Shown here: positions 46,921-63,367 of the stretch, piece after piece
Position numbering within the stretch: the stretch's first letter is position 1
How the letters are laid out: each line of letters opens with the position of its first letter
Assembly (NCBI RefSeq): GCF_025377685.1
Contig: NZ_JACEHK010000017.1
Location: 1 to 64,000, forward strand
Source of the DNA: Anaerobacillus sp. CMMVII
GTDB taxonomy: Bacteria; Bacillota; Bacilli; Bacillales; Anaerobacillaceae
Direction of reading: 5' to 3'
DNA: 64,000 nucleotides
Made by a program: the position numbers and the translations under genes
Notes under the pieces: generated by a model
Database searches by the model: none
The model's input: the letters and a program-made list of their open reading frames with translations, nothing else
What the model was told of the DNA's origin: nothing

Positions 46921-49950
<3,030 letters not shown>

Positions 49951-49985
49951 AAGTTCACTCCCTTTGCATTTATTTGAGAACACAA

Positions 49986-54967: not shown

Positions 54968-55004
54968 TAAAAACGTTGTAAAAAAAAGTTTAAATAAAAT
55001 TATT

Positions 55005-55094
55005 CGTTCGTATATTCCTGGTAATATGGGCTAGGAGTTTCTACAAGGGACCGCAAATTCCTAACTACGAGTGTGGCTAGGAATCTATATTTTT
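55005..55094 (+). promoter_or_regulatory. Guanine-type purine riboswitch with terminator
   Basis: P1 pairs CGTTCGTA with TACGAGTG; conserved core seen as TATGGGCTAGGAGTTTCTAC, GGGACCGCAAATTCCTAACT and ACTACGAG. The discriminating base in the 3' core (CTACGAG) is C, as in guanine/hypoxanthine aptamers, not U. ATTCCTA...TAGGAAT then CTATATTTTT forms an overlapping terminator, so it should stop transcription when guanine is bound. Confidence 0.92.
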
Positions 55095-55109: not shown

Positions 55110-56399
55110 ATGGAACGGTTATTTAAGTTAAATGAGTTAGGAACGAATGTCAGAACAGAAGTGATAGCTGGTTTTACGACATTTTTGACCATGGTATACA
55201 TCGTAGTTGTCAATCCGGCGATTTTATCAGCTGCGGGAGTTCCGTTTGACCAAGTGTTTATTGCCACAATTTTAGCAGCCGTTATTGGTACGTTAATCAT
55301 GGCATTTTCAGCAAATTATCCGATTGCAGTTGCCCCGGGGATGGGATTGAATGCTTATTTTACAAGTGTTGTCATTTCCCAAGGAGTCAGCTATCAGGTC
55401 GTTTTTGGTACAGTCTTTTTGGCTGGTCTTTTGTTTTTGCTTTTAACATTTACAAAGTTTCGTGAAATGCTCATTCAATCGATTCCAGCTTCTATTAAAT
55501 ATGGTATTACATCAGGAATTGGTTTATTTATCGCGTTTATTGGATTACAAATGTCAGGGTTAGTCGTAGCCAGCCCGGCGACACTCGTAACAATTGGAGA
55601 TTTGCGCTCGCCAATAACGGCATTGACGATCCTTGGTTTATTTATTACTTTCGTTTTAATTGCCAGAAATATTAAAGGTGCGTTGTTTATTGGGATGCTA
55701 GTAACGGCACTTGTTGGTTATTTTACTGGGCATCTTGAAATCAATGGGATTGTTTCAACACCACCGCCGATCGTTTTCTTTGACATCGACATTGCAGGAG
55801 TATTTTCACATGCTTTATATACGGTTGTCTTTGCCTTTTTACTCGTAACAATTTTCGATACAACAGGAACACTAATCGGTGTAGCTGAGCAGGCAGGCTT
55901 AATGAAAGACGGCAAAATGAAAAAAGCAAAATCGGCCCTAACAGCCGATGCCGTAGCTACTACAGTAGGTTCTGCGTTAGGTACAAGCCCATCGACAGCT
56001 TATATTGAGTCATCCGCGGGTGTCGCAGCTGGTGGCCGTTCAGGATTAACGGCATTGGTTGTAGCAATCCTTTTCATGGTTGCCTTGTTTTTCTCACCGC
56101 TAGTTTCAGCAATTTCCGCGCTTCCGGCCATCACAGCTCCGGCGTTAATCATCGTTGGTTGCTACATGATGGAAGGCTTAGCGAAAATAAATTGGAAGAA
56201 GTTTGACGATGCCTTTCCTTCATTTGCGATTATCTTAACAATGCCATTAACATCAAGCATTGCCACTGGAATAGCCATTGGATTTATTACCTACCCAGTG
56301 ATCAAGCTAGTAAGTGGAAAAGGAAAAGAAGTACATCCAATTCTTTATATCTTTGGTATCATTTTTGCTATCCAAATGGTGTTTTTCCCAGCGCATTAA
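55110..56399 (+). CDS. pbuG: NCS2/AzgA family guanine/hypoxanthine permease
   Basis: 429 residues with about 12-14 membrane segments. Seen: ELGTNVRTEVIAGFTTFLTM, VAPGMGLNAYFTSVVI, ITSGIGLFIAFIGLQMSG, LVTIFDTTGTLIGVAEQAGL, LGTSPSTAYIESSAGVAAGG and SIATGIAIGF, all AzgA-family hallmarks. It imports guanine or hypoxanthine with protons. Both the PurBoxes and the guanine riboswitch upstream agree with this role. The ATG at 55110 follows TGGAGG. Confidence 0.94.
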   Translation: MERLFKLNELGTNVRTEVIAGFTTFLTMVYIVVVNPAILSAAGVPFDQVFIATILAAVIGTLIMAFSANYPIAVAPGMGLNAYFTSVVISQGVSYQVVFGTVFLAGLLFLLLTFTKFREMLIQSIPASIKYGITSGIGLFIAFIGLQMSGLVVASPATLVTIGDLRSPITALTILGLFITFVLIARNIKGALFIGMLVTALVGYFTGHLEINGIVSTPPPIVFFDIDIAGVFSHALYTVVFAFLLVTIFDTTGTLIGVAEQAGLMKDGKMKKAKSALTADAVATTVGSALGTSPSTAYIESSAGVAAGGRSGLTALVVAILFMVALFFSPLVSAISALPAITAPALIIVGCYMMEGLAKINWKKFDDAFPSFAIILTMPLTSSIATGIAIGFITYPVIKLVSGKGKEVHPILYIFGIIFAIQMVFFPAH

Positions 56400-57523: not shown

Positions 57524-57560
57524 GTTATCAAGACTTTAAAATACTTATTTTTTATACACT

Positions 57561-57600
57561 AAAAGCGCTGTAGAGGAAGAACTCTACAGCGTTTTTAAAA
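57561..57600. terminator. Bidirectional terminator after the SGNH gene
   Basis: CGCTGTAGAG and CTCTACAGCG form a perfect 10-bp stem with a GAAGAA loop, with TTTTTAAAA downstream and AAAA upstream, so it can also end the minus-strand gene. Confidence 0.85.
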
Positions 57601-57623
57601 GGGTGGTCCAGGCATCAAACTAA

Positions 57624-58253
57624 TTACTTATTCCAATCGCCTTTTGACTCATTCGTTAATAGTGTAACATTAATAACTTCGGTAGTAGTATCGCCTTTTG
57701 TAACTTTCTCAGAGGTCTGAATGTCAACAACCTCCATTACACCTTCAACAACGTCTTTAGTAGTCAAACTAGTTTCGCTTAACACTTTACCATTACTTCC
57801 CGGAGCACCTCGGTGCGTGATAGTAGTTTCTGTAGTTTCTGTAATAGTAAGCGGTGTTTCAGTGGTGGTAGTAGTAGTAATTGTCGTAGTCTCGTCCCAA
57901 GATGATTGTATAGTAGTTTTTTGAGTAGTAGTAGTAGTTACATACCTAAACCAATTTTGTGCAGGATGAAATTCTTTTTCTACTTTTGTATCAACTACCA
58001 CTAATTCTTCACTCGTACTGCTTTTGGTCTCAGTGGAAGACTCTTCGGAGGTTTCTCTATCAACTCTTAAATCTTCAGTTACTATCTCAGAGGTAGTAAC
58101 CAATGTTGTAATACCATTTGAGAAATTTGCGCTTTGTCCAGGAGCAGTTTCTAAGCCTTTACCTTTACCATTACTTGCAAGGGCACCAGTTGTCAAGCTA
58201 AGAGAAAGCAACAAAGTCAAAACTACTACAGATAATTTTTTTGCTTTTTTCAT
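57624..58253 (-). CDS. Secreted threonine-rich protein of unknown function
   Basis: 209 residues. Signal peptide MKKAKKLSVVVLTLLLSLSL...TGALA, then a mature chain very rich in Thr, Ser and Glu, with long Thr runs (YVTTTTTQKTTI, TTTITTTTTTETPLTITET) and the block FHPAQNWFRYV. No catalytic motif and no sortase or anchor signal is seen. It could be an O-glycosylated or fibrous surface protein. The ATG at 58253 is chosen for the AGGAG at the right distance. Its 5' leader holds the tandem pseudoknot RNA. Confidence 0.7.
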   Translation of the reverse strand: MKKAKKLSVVVLTLLLSLSLTTGALASNGKGKGLETAPGQSANFSNGITTLVTTSEIVTEDLRVDRETSEESSTETKSSTSEELVVVDTKVEKEFHPAQNWFRYVTTTTTQKTTIQSSWDETTTITTTTTTETPLTITETTETTITHRGAPGSNGKVLSETSLTTKDVVEGVMEVVDIQTSEKVTKGDTTTEVINVTLLTNESKGDWNK

Positions 58254-58263
58254 TTCCTTTTCT

Positions 58264-58303
58264 CCTCTTAATTTAATATTTTTTGACATAATTAAATAAG
58301 AGG
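58264..58303 (-). promoter_or_regulatory. Hairpin sequestering the Shine-Dalgarno of the Thr-rich gene
   Basis: CCTCTT-A-ATTTAAT (58264-58277) pairs with ATTAAAT/AAGAGG (58291-58303), with one bulged base. On the minus strand the arm next to the start codon contains AAGAGG and thus part of the AGGAG ribosome binding site. The opposite arm abuts the last base pairs of pseudoknot copy 1. Confidence 0.6.
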
Positions 58304-58305
58304 GC

Positions 58306-58446
58306 CGGTTACACCACTAGCTCGATATAGCCCAGGTGTCCAATTATAGGCTATACTTCATTGCATCCCCGTCTTGCGGGTCGGTTACACTACTAGCTCG
58401 ATATAGCCCAAGTGTCCAATTAAAGGCTATATTTCTATGCTCCCCG
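58306..58446 (-). ncRNA. Candidate tandem pseudoknot regulatory RNA in the leader of the Thr-rich gene
   Basis: Two 50-base copies (58306-58355 and 58382-58431) differ at three positions only; similarity extends a further 15 bases to a CCCCG. In each, 7-bp stem A (58326-58332 with 58349-58355) interleaves with 5-bp stem B (58311-58315 with 58335-58339), an H-type pseudoknot. Two of the three differences compensate: ACACC/GGTGT in one copy is ACACT/AGTGT in the other. Their position just before a sequestered ribosome binding site suggests a tandem riboswitch. I do not recognise the class, so ligand is unknown. Confidence 0.6.
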
Positions 58447-58817
58447 AAATTATTTAGTCCCAATTACCTAATTACTAGAGTAGTAGTTAGGATTTAGCGG
58501 TCTGAAGAATAGTTTTCGGTGGCCACCAAGTTATTTTTCAAATCACGCTTATAAATCGATTATATTGCCAAATCTAGTAAAATGATACAATATTTGGTCG
58601 ACAATACATTACAATATTTGTAAAAAAATGTCTAACTTTGCCCTCGGAAAAAACAACCTGGTACTATCATTGTAATAGTAAGTGTAGAAGAAATGCTTCT
58701 AATTACCTAGTGAGATTTCCCAAGGAACTAATTTATCACAAAAAAAGTGTTTGATAGTCGGAAGAAATTGGTCGGTTTGGGGAATATATAAGGACTGAAA
58801 TGTTTAGGAGGTTTAAT

Positions 58818-60700: not shown

Positions 60701-61147
60701 TTGAAGGTCAAGAGTGGAAAGCTGATTATAGCATGTTTAATCTTATTTTTTGGATTTGGCATTAGTAGCATTCATGCTAGTGGCGACTCTGGTCAATTTC
60801 TCAAAACTTGGTATAATCAGCTTTTCCAAGTTGTGGTAGAAGATGTAGCTGCTAACGCTGATGAAAAATCACAACAAGAGTTAGCTAAGTTAATTGAAGA
60901 GAATGAGCAACTAATTCTTAATAGTCAAAAGCAGCTGGACGATGTTACAAACGAACTAAGTACAAGTATCGTGAATAATATCTCAGCATTAACTACAGAT
61001 TATGTTGATCAAATTGAAGAAGCAAAACAAAACATTATCAACCATGAGATCACAAGCGATTTACAACAATATGTCGATCAAAAGAAGGAACAAATTGATC
61101 GGGAAATAGCTGAACTCATCTTACAAATTGTAGAAGAAGAAAACTAA
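60701..61147 (+). CDS. Secreted WY-motif coiled-coil protein 1
   Basis: 148 residues. Signal peptide with cut after IHA, then FLKTWYNQLF and about 100 residues of charged coiled coil (EENEQLILNSQKQLDDVTNE, QYVDQKKEQIDREIAELI). TTG start at 60701, 10 bases after AAGGAGGTG. It is a short paralogue of the next two genes, sharing the W-Y motif about ten residues after the cleavage site. Function unknown; I recognise no family. Confidence 0.75.
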   Translation: MKVKSGKLIIACLILFFGFGISSIHASGDSGQFLKTWYNQLFQVVVEDVAANADEKSQQELAKLIEENEQLILNSQKQLDDVTNELSTSIVNNISALTTDYVDQIEEAKQNIINHEITSDLQQYVDQKKEQIDREIAELILQIVEEEN

Positions 61148-61232
61148 CTATTTGAGGATTTATTACCAAGGTATCAATTTAAAAATTAATTATAAAAAAT
61201 CCAAAATGTGAAAATCGAAGGGAGAAATTAAA

Positions 61233-62042
61233 ATGTTAAAAACAGTTAAAGGTAAAATCGCGGCAGGGGTATTAACAGTTACTTTAGTAAGCGGAGGTAT
61301 GGGTGTGGCATTTGCTAACACTAATGCTGGAGAACAATTAGAGAGATGGTATACAGAGTTGTTTAGTAGTAAAAAGGTAGAGATGGAGAATGACGTTAAT
61401 ATTTATGGACTAAGTTTAGTTGAGGATTTAAAAAATGACAAAAATCAACTGATTACTGACTCAAATCTCGATGTATCAGAGGCAGGAAGTACAGAAACAG
61501 GGAGAGTAGAGGGACAAATTACTTCAGCATTAGGTACACATAAAACTGATATTTCTAATATGGCAAATGATATTACTAAATGGGCTGGCGGTAAAGGTGG
61601 TCAAGCTAATGCAGGATTAATCTTTCATAATTTAAAAGATTGGAGAGCTTACTATGAAGGAGTAGTAGACGGAGTAATTAGTCAACAAAAAGCAAAGGCT
61701 ATGACAGAAGTTTTAAATGCTATTGCAGGTCAAGGTGAAACTTCCATCACTAACTTGGAAACTGCTGTAGAAAGTGCAAGGTCTGCTGCTGTCCTTGACT
61801 TAGAAGCTGCTATTCTAAAAGCGAAAACAGATATTGAAGGATTACTAGATGATAAAGCGAAAACTGATGGTGTAGATAAGCTTACAAACTACATTGATAT
61901 AAAGGTTGCAGCTGCAAAGAAAGAAATTGAAGATACTGCTAGTGATTTAGTAGAAGAGATTAAAGAGTCAATTTTAGAGTTAGGCGCCGAGTTAGAACGT
62001 GATGCTATACAAGATCTCCAAGATCTAGTAGACGGTATCTAA
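61233..62042 (+). CDS. Secreted WY-motif coiled-coil protein 2
   Basis: 269 residues. Signal peptide with cut after AFA, then QLERWYTELFSSKKVEMEND, a low-complexity middle (WAGGKGGQANAGLIF) and a helical Ala/Glu/Lys-rich second half ending IQDLQDLVDGI. No catalytic motif. The ATG at 61233 follows GAAGGGAG. The longest of the three paralogues; likely a structural or matrix protein of the envelope, which is inference only. Confidence 0.78.
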   Translation: MLKTVKGKIAAGVLTVTLVSGGMGVAFANTNAGEQLERWYTELFSSKKVEMENDVNIYGLSLVEDLKNDKNQLITDSNLDVSEAGSTETGRVEGQITSALGTHKTDISNMANDITKWAGGKGGQANAGLIFHNLKDWRAYYEGVVDGVISQQKAKAMTEVLNAIAGQGETSITNLETAVESARSAAVLDLEAAILKAKTDIEGLLDDKAKTDGVDKLTNYIDIKVAAAKKEIEDTASDLVEEIKESILELGAELERDAIQDLQDLVDGI

Positions 62043-62045
62043 CGA

Positions 62046-62099
62046 GTAGTAGTTTCAACTACCAGAAATCCTCCTACGAGGATTTCTGGCTATTACATA
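62046..62099 (+). terminator. Hairpin between WY proteins 2 and 3
   Basis: CAGAAATCCTC and GAGGATTTCTG form a perfect 11-bp stem with loop CTAC. No strong T tract follows, so it is likely a processing or partial-termination structure that sets relative expression of the two genes. Confidence 0.65.
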
Positions 62100-62117
62100 A
62101 AAGGAGGTTAAGTAAAA

Positions 62118-62720
62118 ATGAGTAGGTTATATAAATATAAAGTTGAAAAAAAACAAGGGTTTAAACGTAAATTTGTAATTGGACTTGTTTCTTTAAGTAC
62201 AACGTTTGTGCTGACGACGGGTGTAGCATTTGCTAATTCAGAGCTGAACATTTCTACTTTGCTGCAGGATTGGTATAGCAAAAAGGCCAATGAAGCCATT
62301 GTAAAAATGGAGGGTGAAGTTCAACGTGAATTAGAAGAACAAAAGCTACGTTTGAAGGAAGAAGTCCAATTAAAATTACAAAGCTCTGCCGAAGAGATCG
62401 ATAGTTTTACAGAAACCCAAACAAACAAAATTATTGCTGAGATTCAAAAGTATGCTGATGAATTGATTAAAAATGCAAATTTTTCCAATGGAGCTGAGAA
62501 GCAACAAATTGAAGCAAAGTTAGCTGCAATACAAAATGAGGCCACTCAAGCCATTGACGCTCTCTTTTCTAGTAGCGGTGAAGAAGCTACAGACCCAGCG
62601 TCTAGCAATAACGATTCTGATGTGATAGAAGAAGTAGAGGAAGAAGAAGAAATAAAAAAAGAAGATAAGAAGGAGAAAGGTCAAGAGAAGAAGAATGTAA
62701 AGGAAGAAGATCAGCCATAA
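62118..62720 (+). CDS. Secreted WY-motif coiled-coil protein 3
   Basis: 200 residues. Signal peptide KRKFVIGLVSLSTTFVLTTG...AFA, then LLQDWYSKKANEAIVKMEGE, a coiled coil rich in Glu/Lys/Gln (REL EEQKLRLKEEVQ) and an acidic-basic low-complexity tail (VIEEVEEEEEIKKEDKKEK). The ATG at 62118 follows AAAGGAGG. Paralogous to the two genes upstream; directly followed by a signal peptidase gene. Confidence 0.78.
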   Translation: MSRLYKYKVEKKQGFKRKFVIGLVSLSTTFVLTTGVAFANSELNISTLLQDWYSKKANEAIVKMEGEVQRELEEQKLRLKEEVQLKLQSSAEEIDSFTETQTNKIIAEIQKYADELIKNANFSNGAEKQQIEAKLAAIQNEATQAIDALFSSSGEEATDPASSNNDSDVIEEVEEEEEIKKEDKKEKGQEKKNVKEEDQP

Positions 62721-62788
62721 ACATATACATGCATTAAGAAAGTAAAACAACAGTAATAAACCTTATACTACTGGAAGGTGTATAACTC

Positions 62789-63367
62789 ATGCATGCAACT
62801 AAACTAGAAATTGATTCTAACGGGTTACAACAGAAAACTGAAGTTCCTAAGAATAACACCAAAAAAGAAATCATCGGCTGGGTTAAATTCATTTTTTTCT
62901 TAACACTTGCTGTATTCGTTATAAAGGGTAGTGTTGGTTTTACATTAGTGGCTGGGGATTCGATGCAACCTTCATTACGTGATGGAAGTCTTGTTTTAGT
63001 GAATAAATTATCTGCGACTTTTTCAGAGCCTAAATATGGAGATATTGTCGTTCTTGAAGAGGCTGGCTATGATGTGATCAAAAGGGTAATAGGGGTACCT
63101 GGAGATACAGTTTCGATAGAAGATGGAGTGGTTTACGTAAACCAACAACCATTACCGGAACTACACACAATTGGCGAGGCAAATAATATGCCGGCCATAA
63201 CGATTCAGCCGGGGAAGATTTTTGTGATGGGTGACAATCGGACACCAGGGGAAAGCTTAGATAGCCGTGATCCAAATGTTGGACCGGTATCGATTGAAAA
63301 TATTAAAGGATATGCAACTATATCTATTTTCCCATTTTATAAAATAGCCAAGCCGTTAAAATTATAA
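62789..63367 (+). CDS. sipS: Type I signal peptidase
   Basis: 192 residues. One N-terminal TM helix (IIGWVKFIFFLTLAVFVIKG), box B AGDSMQPSLRDGSLVLVN with the nucleophile Ser, box D YDVIKRVIGVPGD with the general-base Lys, box E GDNR...SLDSRDPNVGPV. This is the bacterial Ser-Lys (P-type) enzyme, not the SipW type. It is probably the enzyme that cleaves the three neighbouring precursors. The symbol is by family; the chromosomal sip genes cannot be told apart here. Confidence 0.85.
   Translation: MHATKLEIDSNGLQQKTEVPKNNTKKEIIGWVKFIFFLTLAVFVIKGSVGFTLVAGDSMQPSLRDGSLVLVNKLSATFSEPKYGDIVVLEEAGYDVIKRVIGVPGDTVSIEDGVVYVNQQPLPELHTIGEANNMPAITIQPGKIFVMGDNRTPGESLDSRDPNVGPVSIENIKGYATISIFPFYKIAKPLKL

Follow-up and report, generated by a model that had tools for sequence, protein, structure and literature searches.

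The window analysed here, a 64,000-nt stretch of Anaerobacillus sp. CMMVII DNA, encodes on its minus strand a threonine-rich protein whose gene is preceded by a structured leader and candidate promoter elements. From the 3′ end of the transcript upstream, the locus contains the following features:

57566-57591, minus strand: terminator-like hairpin behind the gene, found by consensus scan
57624-58253, minus strand: open reading frame of the Thr-rich secreted protein P0001 (209 aa), with a signal-peptide-like N-terminus
58262-58267, minus strand: Shine-Dalgarno (SD) sequence GAGGAG, read from the sequence, 8 nt before the ATG at 58253
58264-58303, minus strand: SD-sequestering hairpin CCUCUUA...UAAGAGG (expression platform); all seven pairs are kept in all six aligned members, one member having U-G at one of them
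58301-58304, minus strand: 3′ strand of P1 of aptamer copy 2 (P1 partner 58367-58370); 58301-58303 are common to the SD-sequestering hairpin (partner 58264-58266)
58294-58377, minus strand: c-di-GMP-II aptamer copy 2, proximal and adjoining the expression platform (RF01786, 69.4 bits)
58368-58380, minus strand: linker CCCG-CAAGA-CGGG, which in folding can pair the P1 3′ strand of copy 1 with the P1 5′ strand of copy 2
58370-58453, minus strand: c-di-GMP-II aptamer copy 1, distal and 5′ in the RNA (RF01786, 69.6 bits, E = 1.5e-13)
58519-58526, minus strand: GTGGCCAC palindrome, likely an operator just 3′ of the promoter, judged by its conservation in the subfamily
58559-58564, minus strand: TATAAT, likely the −10 element, judged by its spacing from the box
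58598-58604, minus strand: TTGTCGA box, part of a composite promoter pattern and resembling the Spo0A box consensus

P0001 matched no Pfam or NCBIfam family at E 0.1, and neither the search of named genomes nor that of seven genomes of the genus returned a relative besides P0001 itself. It is nevertheless no orphan, since homologues from Mesobacillus subterraneus (54% identical) and from a MAG contig labelled Clostridiaceae (42%) both sit behind the same type of riboswitch. A structure model built from three sequences consisted mostly of strands and, with a mean pLDDT of 52.8, was too poor for a fold search. Elsewhere in the window, the minus strand at 46921-49983 encodes a protein of 1020 aa that contains a very long GPT repeat of collagen type and is reminiscent of exosporium glycoproteins. 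Three consecutive secreted-looking proteins rich in charged helical sequence (by eye) are encoded on the plus strand at 60701-63367, followed by a signal-peptidase-like gene, judged by its motifs; in another genome (L063), a c-di-GMP-II aptamer is followed by a secreted-looking protein of similar composition. A purine riboswitch (RF00167, 75 bits; 54988-55087, plus strand) precedes a permease-like gene at 55110.

The leader carries two full-length c-di-GMP-II aptamers

The initial annotation had described two 50-base copies, 76 bases apart and differing at three positions, and this description proved exact: 58306-58355 and 58382-58431 form the best 50-nt pair at an offset of 76, with three mismatches. 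Twenty mononucleotide-shuffled windows yielded no 50-mer pair with five or fewer mismatches at offsets of 50-199; by the same criterion, the first 20 clusters listed for the real window all lay near 47200-47800, in a collagen-like repeat. The full repeat is 68 nt long at 87% identity, and over a longer alignment the copies are 81% identical.

We scored class membership with the covariance model of the c-di-GMP-II family (RF01786; curated cut-off, 53.5 bits). Both copies matched over all 84 model positions and were the only sites above the cut-off in the whole genome; the two matches overlap by 8 nt, and tables that keep the best of overlapping matches therefore list copy 1 alone. Matches to mir-320 and MIR408 on the same stretch were far under the cut-off and were taken as chance. 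The P3 hairpin has 8 bp in both copies; it corresponds to the annotated stem A, for which 7 bp had been given, whereas the 5 bp of stem B stood, each copy forming five standard pairs between the P3 loop and the 3′ strand. This stem is the pseudoknot of the class, which the Rfam structure line for RF01786 does not draw. P2 of copy 2 contains one U-U mismatch, and at model position 18 copy 1 lacks the U of the RF01786 consensus. Of the three differences between the copies, two occupy both sides of one pseudoknot pair (copy 1, U-A; copy 2, C-G), which bears out the compensation noticed in stem B; among six aligned relatives, this pair is U-A in four, C-G in one and U-G in one. The locus thus shares with RF01786 the full-length aptamer, the pseudoknot, P1-P3 and a place in the leader of a secreted protein gene, and departs from it in two respects: the subfamily has one pseudoknot pair changed from the consensus G-C to A-U (GGAC with GUGU), and its P1 is GGG/CCC, with the 3′ strand serving also as the anti-SD strand.

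These matches bear on what the element senses. The initial annotation had mistakenly found the repeat unlike c-di-GMP-II and had left its proposal of a new class to a comparison with Rfam; since that comparison assigns both copies to RF01786, the proposal falls by the annotation's own test. Nothing but the pseudoknot geometry speaks for a new riboswitch class with another ligand, against matches of 69.6 and 69.4 bits over the 84 model positions (cut-off, 53.5), and we rejected it as extremely improbable. Drift of the ligand to another dinucleotide within a c-di-GMP-II-like fold could draw on the subfamily-wide change of the pseudoknot pair, but that change is compensated and GGDEF and EAL domains abound in the genome, which makes such a drift very unlikely in our estimate. 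Genome-wide, there are 21 GGDEF matches (20 over the cut-off) and 15 EAL matches over the cut-off, a few of them pieces of one gene, and the host therefore likely makes c-di-GMP and can also break it down. Just past the window end, the same contig carries a GGDEF gene (G000:C17:68032-68490) and a GGDEF-EAL gene (G000:C17:70159-71397), about 10-13 kb from the riboswitch. As judged from sequence, the element is a tandem c-di-GMP-II riboswitch, that is, a known class in a known tandem arrangement at a new locus.

The proximal aptamer shares a strand with the SD-sequestering hairpin

The RNA 3′ of the proximal aptamer reads ...GUGUAACCGGCCCUCUUAUUU...AAAUUAAGAGGAGAAAAGGAAAUG and contains, as had been annotated, a minus-strand hairpin that sequesters the SD of the Thr-rich gene, with arms at 58297-58303 and 58264-58270. 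On paper, from sequence and folding, the aptamer stem and this hairpin compete for one strand, 58301-58303. We computed SD accessibility, with and without forcing the aptamers to fold, in an energy model that includes neither pseudoknot nor ligand energies. The mean unpaired probability of GAGGAG was 0.30 in the free RNA and 0.28 when copy 1 was forced; forcing copy 2 raised it to 0.68, and forcing both copies to 0.70. Since forcing copy 2, and not copy 1, freed the SD, copy 2 is in this computation the aptamer coupled to the ribosome site. The calculation was extended to 40 sites as single-aptamer folding; with L118 and L110 set aside for their short P1 and some near-duplicates among the rest, forcing the aptamer raised SD accessibility at 34 of the 38 scored sites (by at least 0.1 at 31) and lowered it at four (L111, L131, L128 and L113). 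The whole leader of the window folded no better than its shuffled versions (z = −1.13).

Because the P1 3′ strand of copy 2 is the anti-SD strand too, ligand binding should free the ribosome site. When c-di-GMP is absent, CCUCUUA (58303-58297) would pair with UAAGAGG (58270-58264) and hide it. When c-di-GMP is present, the proximal aptamer would close P1 by pairing GGGG (58370-58367) with CCCU (58304-58301), a closure predicted to remove three nucleotides from the hairpin, open its G-C-rich base and free GAGGAG, turning translation ON. The distal aptamer would bind c-di-GMP as well, and its probable effect is to sharpen or shift the response. A consensus scan of 57530-58800 found no terminator-like site in the leader, on which ground we rejected transcription attenuation there; its sole match lies behind the gene, a placement that fits a minus-strand, translational reading without proving transcription. 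On the strength of the sequence and of this modelling, we consider it highly probable that the leader of the secreted Thr-rich protein gene is a tandem c-di-GMP-II riboswitch acting as a translational ON switch.

The switch recurs upstream of diverse secreted proteins

We built a covariance model of aptamer plus platform, R1, from six sites. Across 397 genomes of the order, R1 scored at least 92.6 bits at 12 sites, which are spread over 11 genomes and include the six from which the model was built; the next match below, at 71.3 bits, was copy 1 of the window. A search of 398 genomes drawn from the class added sites scoring 78-87 bits (four) and 64-67 bits (two). An exact pattern for the 3′ half of the switch matched in 38 stretches from named records; one genome supplied two of these, and some (L122, L126, L127 and L132) come from genomes already covered by the R1 searches. 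Evansella, Halalkalibacter, Mesobacillus, Neobacillus, Paenibacillus, Exiguobacterium, Lysinibacillus, Sporosarcina and Clostridium folliculivorans were represented, among others. As the exact pattern fixes the hairpin, invariance of the hairpin at these sites is no evidence. The P1 5′ strand, which lies outside the exact pattern, reads GGG at 36 of 38 sites, but the sites were placed by R1, whose consensus is GGG.

Proteins with signal-peptide-like starts follow the switch at 36 of the same 38 sites, which comprise 37 of the 38 stretches (without L103, where the aptamer is cut at its 5′ end) and a second site in L102. A heuristic had given 37 of 38 and was corrected by eye: its pass at L110 was false, and its failure at L109 reflected a cut at the stretch end. 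At L110, the pattern site (L110:1944-2054) lies before a sugar-epimerase-like gene, with the P1 GGG out of register. The secreted proteins belong to several families: the Thr-rich one of the window, with three members; one carrying a TYFQNGQKAGEVHT-like motif (36% identity between the two members aligned; others by eye); one with GFVGKGDVQ (by eye); and further types, for example one in Paenibacillus. Eight proteins of these families reached no Pfam or NCBIfam cut-off, two of the eight in a scan of Pfam only. Outside the subfamily, type IV pilin-like proteins follow 18 of the 32 RF01786 loci listed for the order (by eye), which are mostly best-scoring matches and no random sample. At L026, L027 and L040 (aptamer 1501-1584), c-di-GMP-II aptamers precede proteins with N-termini resembling PAS sensor domains (by eye); signalling genes may thus be among the targets of some switches.

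The doubling looks old, with copy 1 apparently less constrained

Two full aptamers above the RF01786 cut-off occur in one leader at four of the 12 order sites (the window, G004, G011 and G204), and a fifth, G047, retains a decayed copy of 25 bits. In the class search, R1 detected copy 2 of G431, whose copy 1 scores 62.9 bits. Among the named stretches, a second aptamer lies beside the pattern site in nine of 38 (eight found by R1; L118 by RF01786, at 67.8 bits); a tenth, L102, has an aptamer pair at another site of the same stretch, and the L103 stretch does not reach further upstream. Across five tandem loci, copy 2 sequences are 81-88% identical to one another and copy 1 sequences 61-80%. 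The doubling thus looks old and copy 1 appears less constrained.

How the two aptamers work together was examined through the linker, whose CCCG and CGGG could tie the two P1 stems together when ligand is absent. In a cooperative relay, binding to copy 1 would break the linker, copy 2 would then close, and both would have to be filled. The highest linker pair probability indeed fell from 0.80 in the free RNA to 0.00 when either aptamer was forced, all six computed pairs have a CCC...GGG linker, and the coupling came to −3.8 kcal/mol in the window and −0.8, −6.3 and −2.4 in three relatives. The two other natural pairs were positive, however, at +3.4 and +1.3, and the values for G431 and G047 are weak, as the aptamer finder, which imposes P1, P2 and P3 and holds the pseudoknot bases unpaired, located no P1 in copy 1 of the former or in the decayed copy of the latter. 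The six natural pairs (−6.3 to +3.4 kcal/mol) were no more strongly coupled than artificially joined aptamers, which averaged −3.3 (sd 2.5) for 80 pairs of ordinary aptamers and −3.0 (sd 1.7) for 42 joined subfamily singles. Moreover, CCC...GGG arises automatically once a GGG/CCC P1 is repeated, copy 1 forced alone does not expose the ribosome site, and one relative has let its copy 1 decay to 25 bits. The computed relay is thus unsupported against the joined-pair controls, and we regard it as doubtful; of the tandem, cooperative riboswitch initially proposed, the tandem minus-strand pseudoknot aptamers stand, and the cooperativity gains no specific support from the computed coupling. The alternative, to which we give about an even chance, is that the copies are two independent sensors of one ligand, giving a pseudo-cooperative response, or that copy 1 is a tuning or spare aptamer. 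The lower identity among copy 1s would suit this, as would the behaviour class published for tandem c-di-GMP-II riboswitches by Sherlock et al. (PMC9481103); against it, no further expression platform can be seen between the copies, and at six tandem loci (the window, G004, G011, G204, G431 and L118) copy 1 still scores above the Rfam cut-off.

Candidate promoter elements often accompany the switch

Upstream of the switch, we compared the 12 order sites with 32 other c-di-GMP-II loci, mostly high-scoring matches, searching either strand over 260 nt. The GTGGCCAC palindrome was present at 10 of 12 versus 0 of 32. TGTCGA was found at 11 of 12 versus 4 of 32, but at its conserved place at 10 of 12 (G004 has TTGTCGG there and was counted through a match elsewhere; G047 has none). 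The ordered combination TTGTCG...TATA-box...TGGCCA occurred at 9 of 12 versus 0 of 32. Spacing is also preserved: at 10 of the 11 box-bearing sites, box and −10 element are 38-40 nt apart (61 nt in G342, measured from the first of two boxes), and the −10 element and palindrome are 34-42 nt apart in nine sites. Both motifs are missing from G047, and the palindrome from G011. Among the four class sites that scored 78-87 bits, a TGTCGA-type box occurs at two and the palindrome, searched over 240 nt, at none; some members of the switch family therefore lack the promoter elements. A promoter scan of the minus strand found no sigma-70-type site.

Searched genome-wide, the composite TTGTCG-TATAAT-TGGCCA gave nine matches in 8 of the 11 genomes, eight of them at riboswitch loci, and the reversed pattern gave none. 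The ninth match (G000:C10:54927-55010, minus strand) lies in the same genome as the window, at a place without a riboswitch. A single site in the genome matches TNGTGGCCACNA, and it is not the one in the window, whose palindrome differs in the last base; the count therefore tells little about a regulon, and GTGGCCAC as the mark of a genome-wide regulon was set aside. The TTGTCGA-type box resembles the Spo0A box, TTTGTCGAA. The examined text of one Spo0A paper (PMC12090719) contains neither the word "consensus" nor TGTCGAA.

Discussion

The riboswitch class found here is known, and the shared promoter-riboswitch cassette is the interesting part, which is worth study. The tandem c-di-GMP sensor of Bacillus thuringiensis is reportedly of class I, with an unrelated fold. 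That system (PMC4759541) resembles the present locus as a case of tandem c-di-GMP sensing in a Bacillus leader. Within class II, Sherlock et al. 2022 (PMC9481103) report 59 doublets and 9 triplets. Those tandems likewise place two class aptamers in one leader before a surface or secreted protein, but lie mostly before COG4932 surface anchor genes in Paraclostridium and its kin and are tabled under multiple expression platforms, whereas at the present locus a single SD-sequestering platform can be seen and the 84-position matches share 8 nt. The class II riboswitches of C. difficile are described in PMC11477304 as ON switches for adhesins and type IV pili; they are transcriptional, save Cdi2_1, which acts on translation with a group I ribozyme, whereas the present platform is a plain SD hairpin. 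A survey (PMC12452182) found that c-di-GMP riboswitches tend significantly toward tandem occurrence, but it pools the classes, and its Bacillota passage concerns c-di-GMP-I doublets before yebA, a different fold and gene. Searches of open-licence papers, judged by title and opening abstract lines, turned up no description of a platform in which P1 supplies the anti-SD strand, or of the cassette.

We propose, half persuaded ourselves, that the elements form a widespread Bacillota cassette: a TTTGTCGA box resembling the Spo0A box, TATAAT, an operator (GTGGCCAC) and a c-di-GMP-II switch that has one or two aptamers and takes its anti-SD strand from P1. The cassette would lie before several unrelated families of secreted proteins. 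It could define a surface or matrix regulon in which Spo0A, and thus starvation, is read at the level of transcription and c-di-GMP at that of translation.

In Bacillaceae, this switch is found before secreted proteins that are uncharacterised and unrelated to one another, often together with the same promoter elements; the switch alone is also found in Paenibacillus, Exiguobacterium and a Clostridium. In Bacillales, c-di-GMP would thereby gain direct RNA targets besides type IV pilin-like genes. For the secreted proteins themselves, the switch suggests a testable function: they would be made at high c-di-GMP, and so may serve sessile life or the biofilm matrix.
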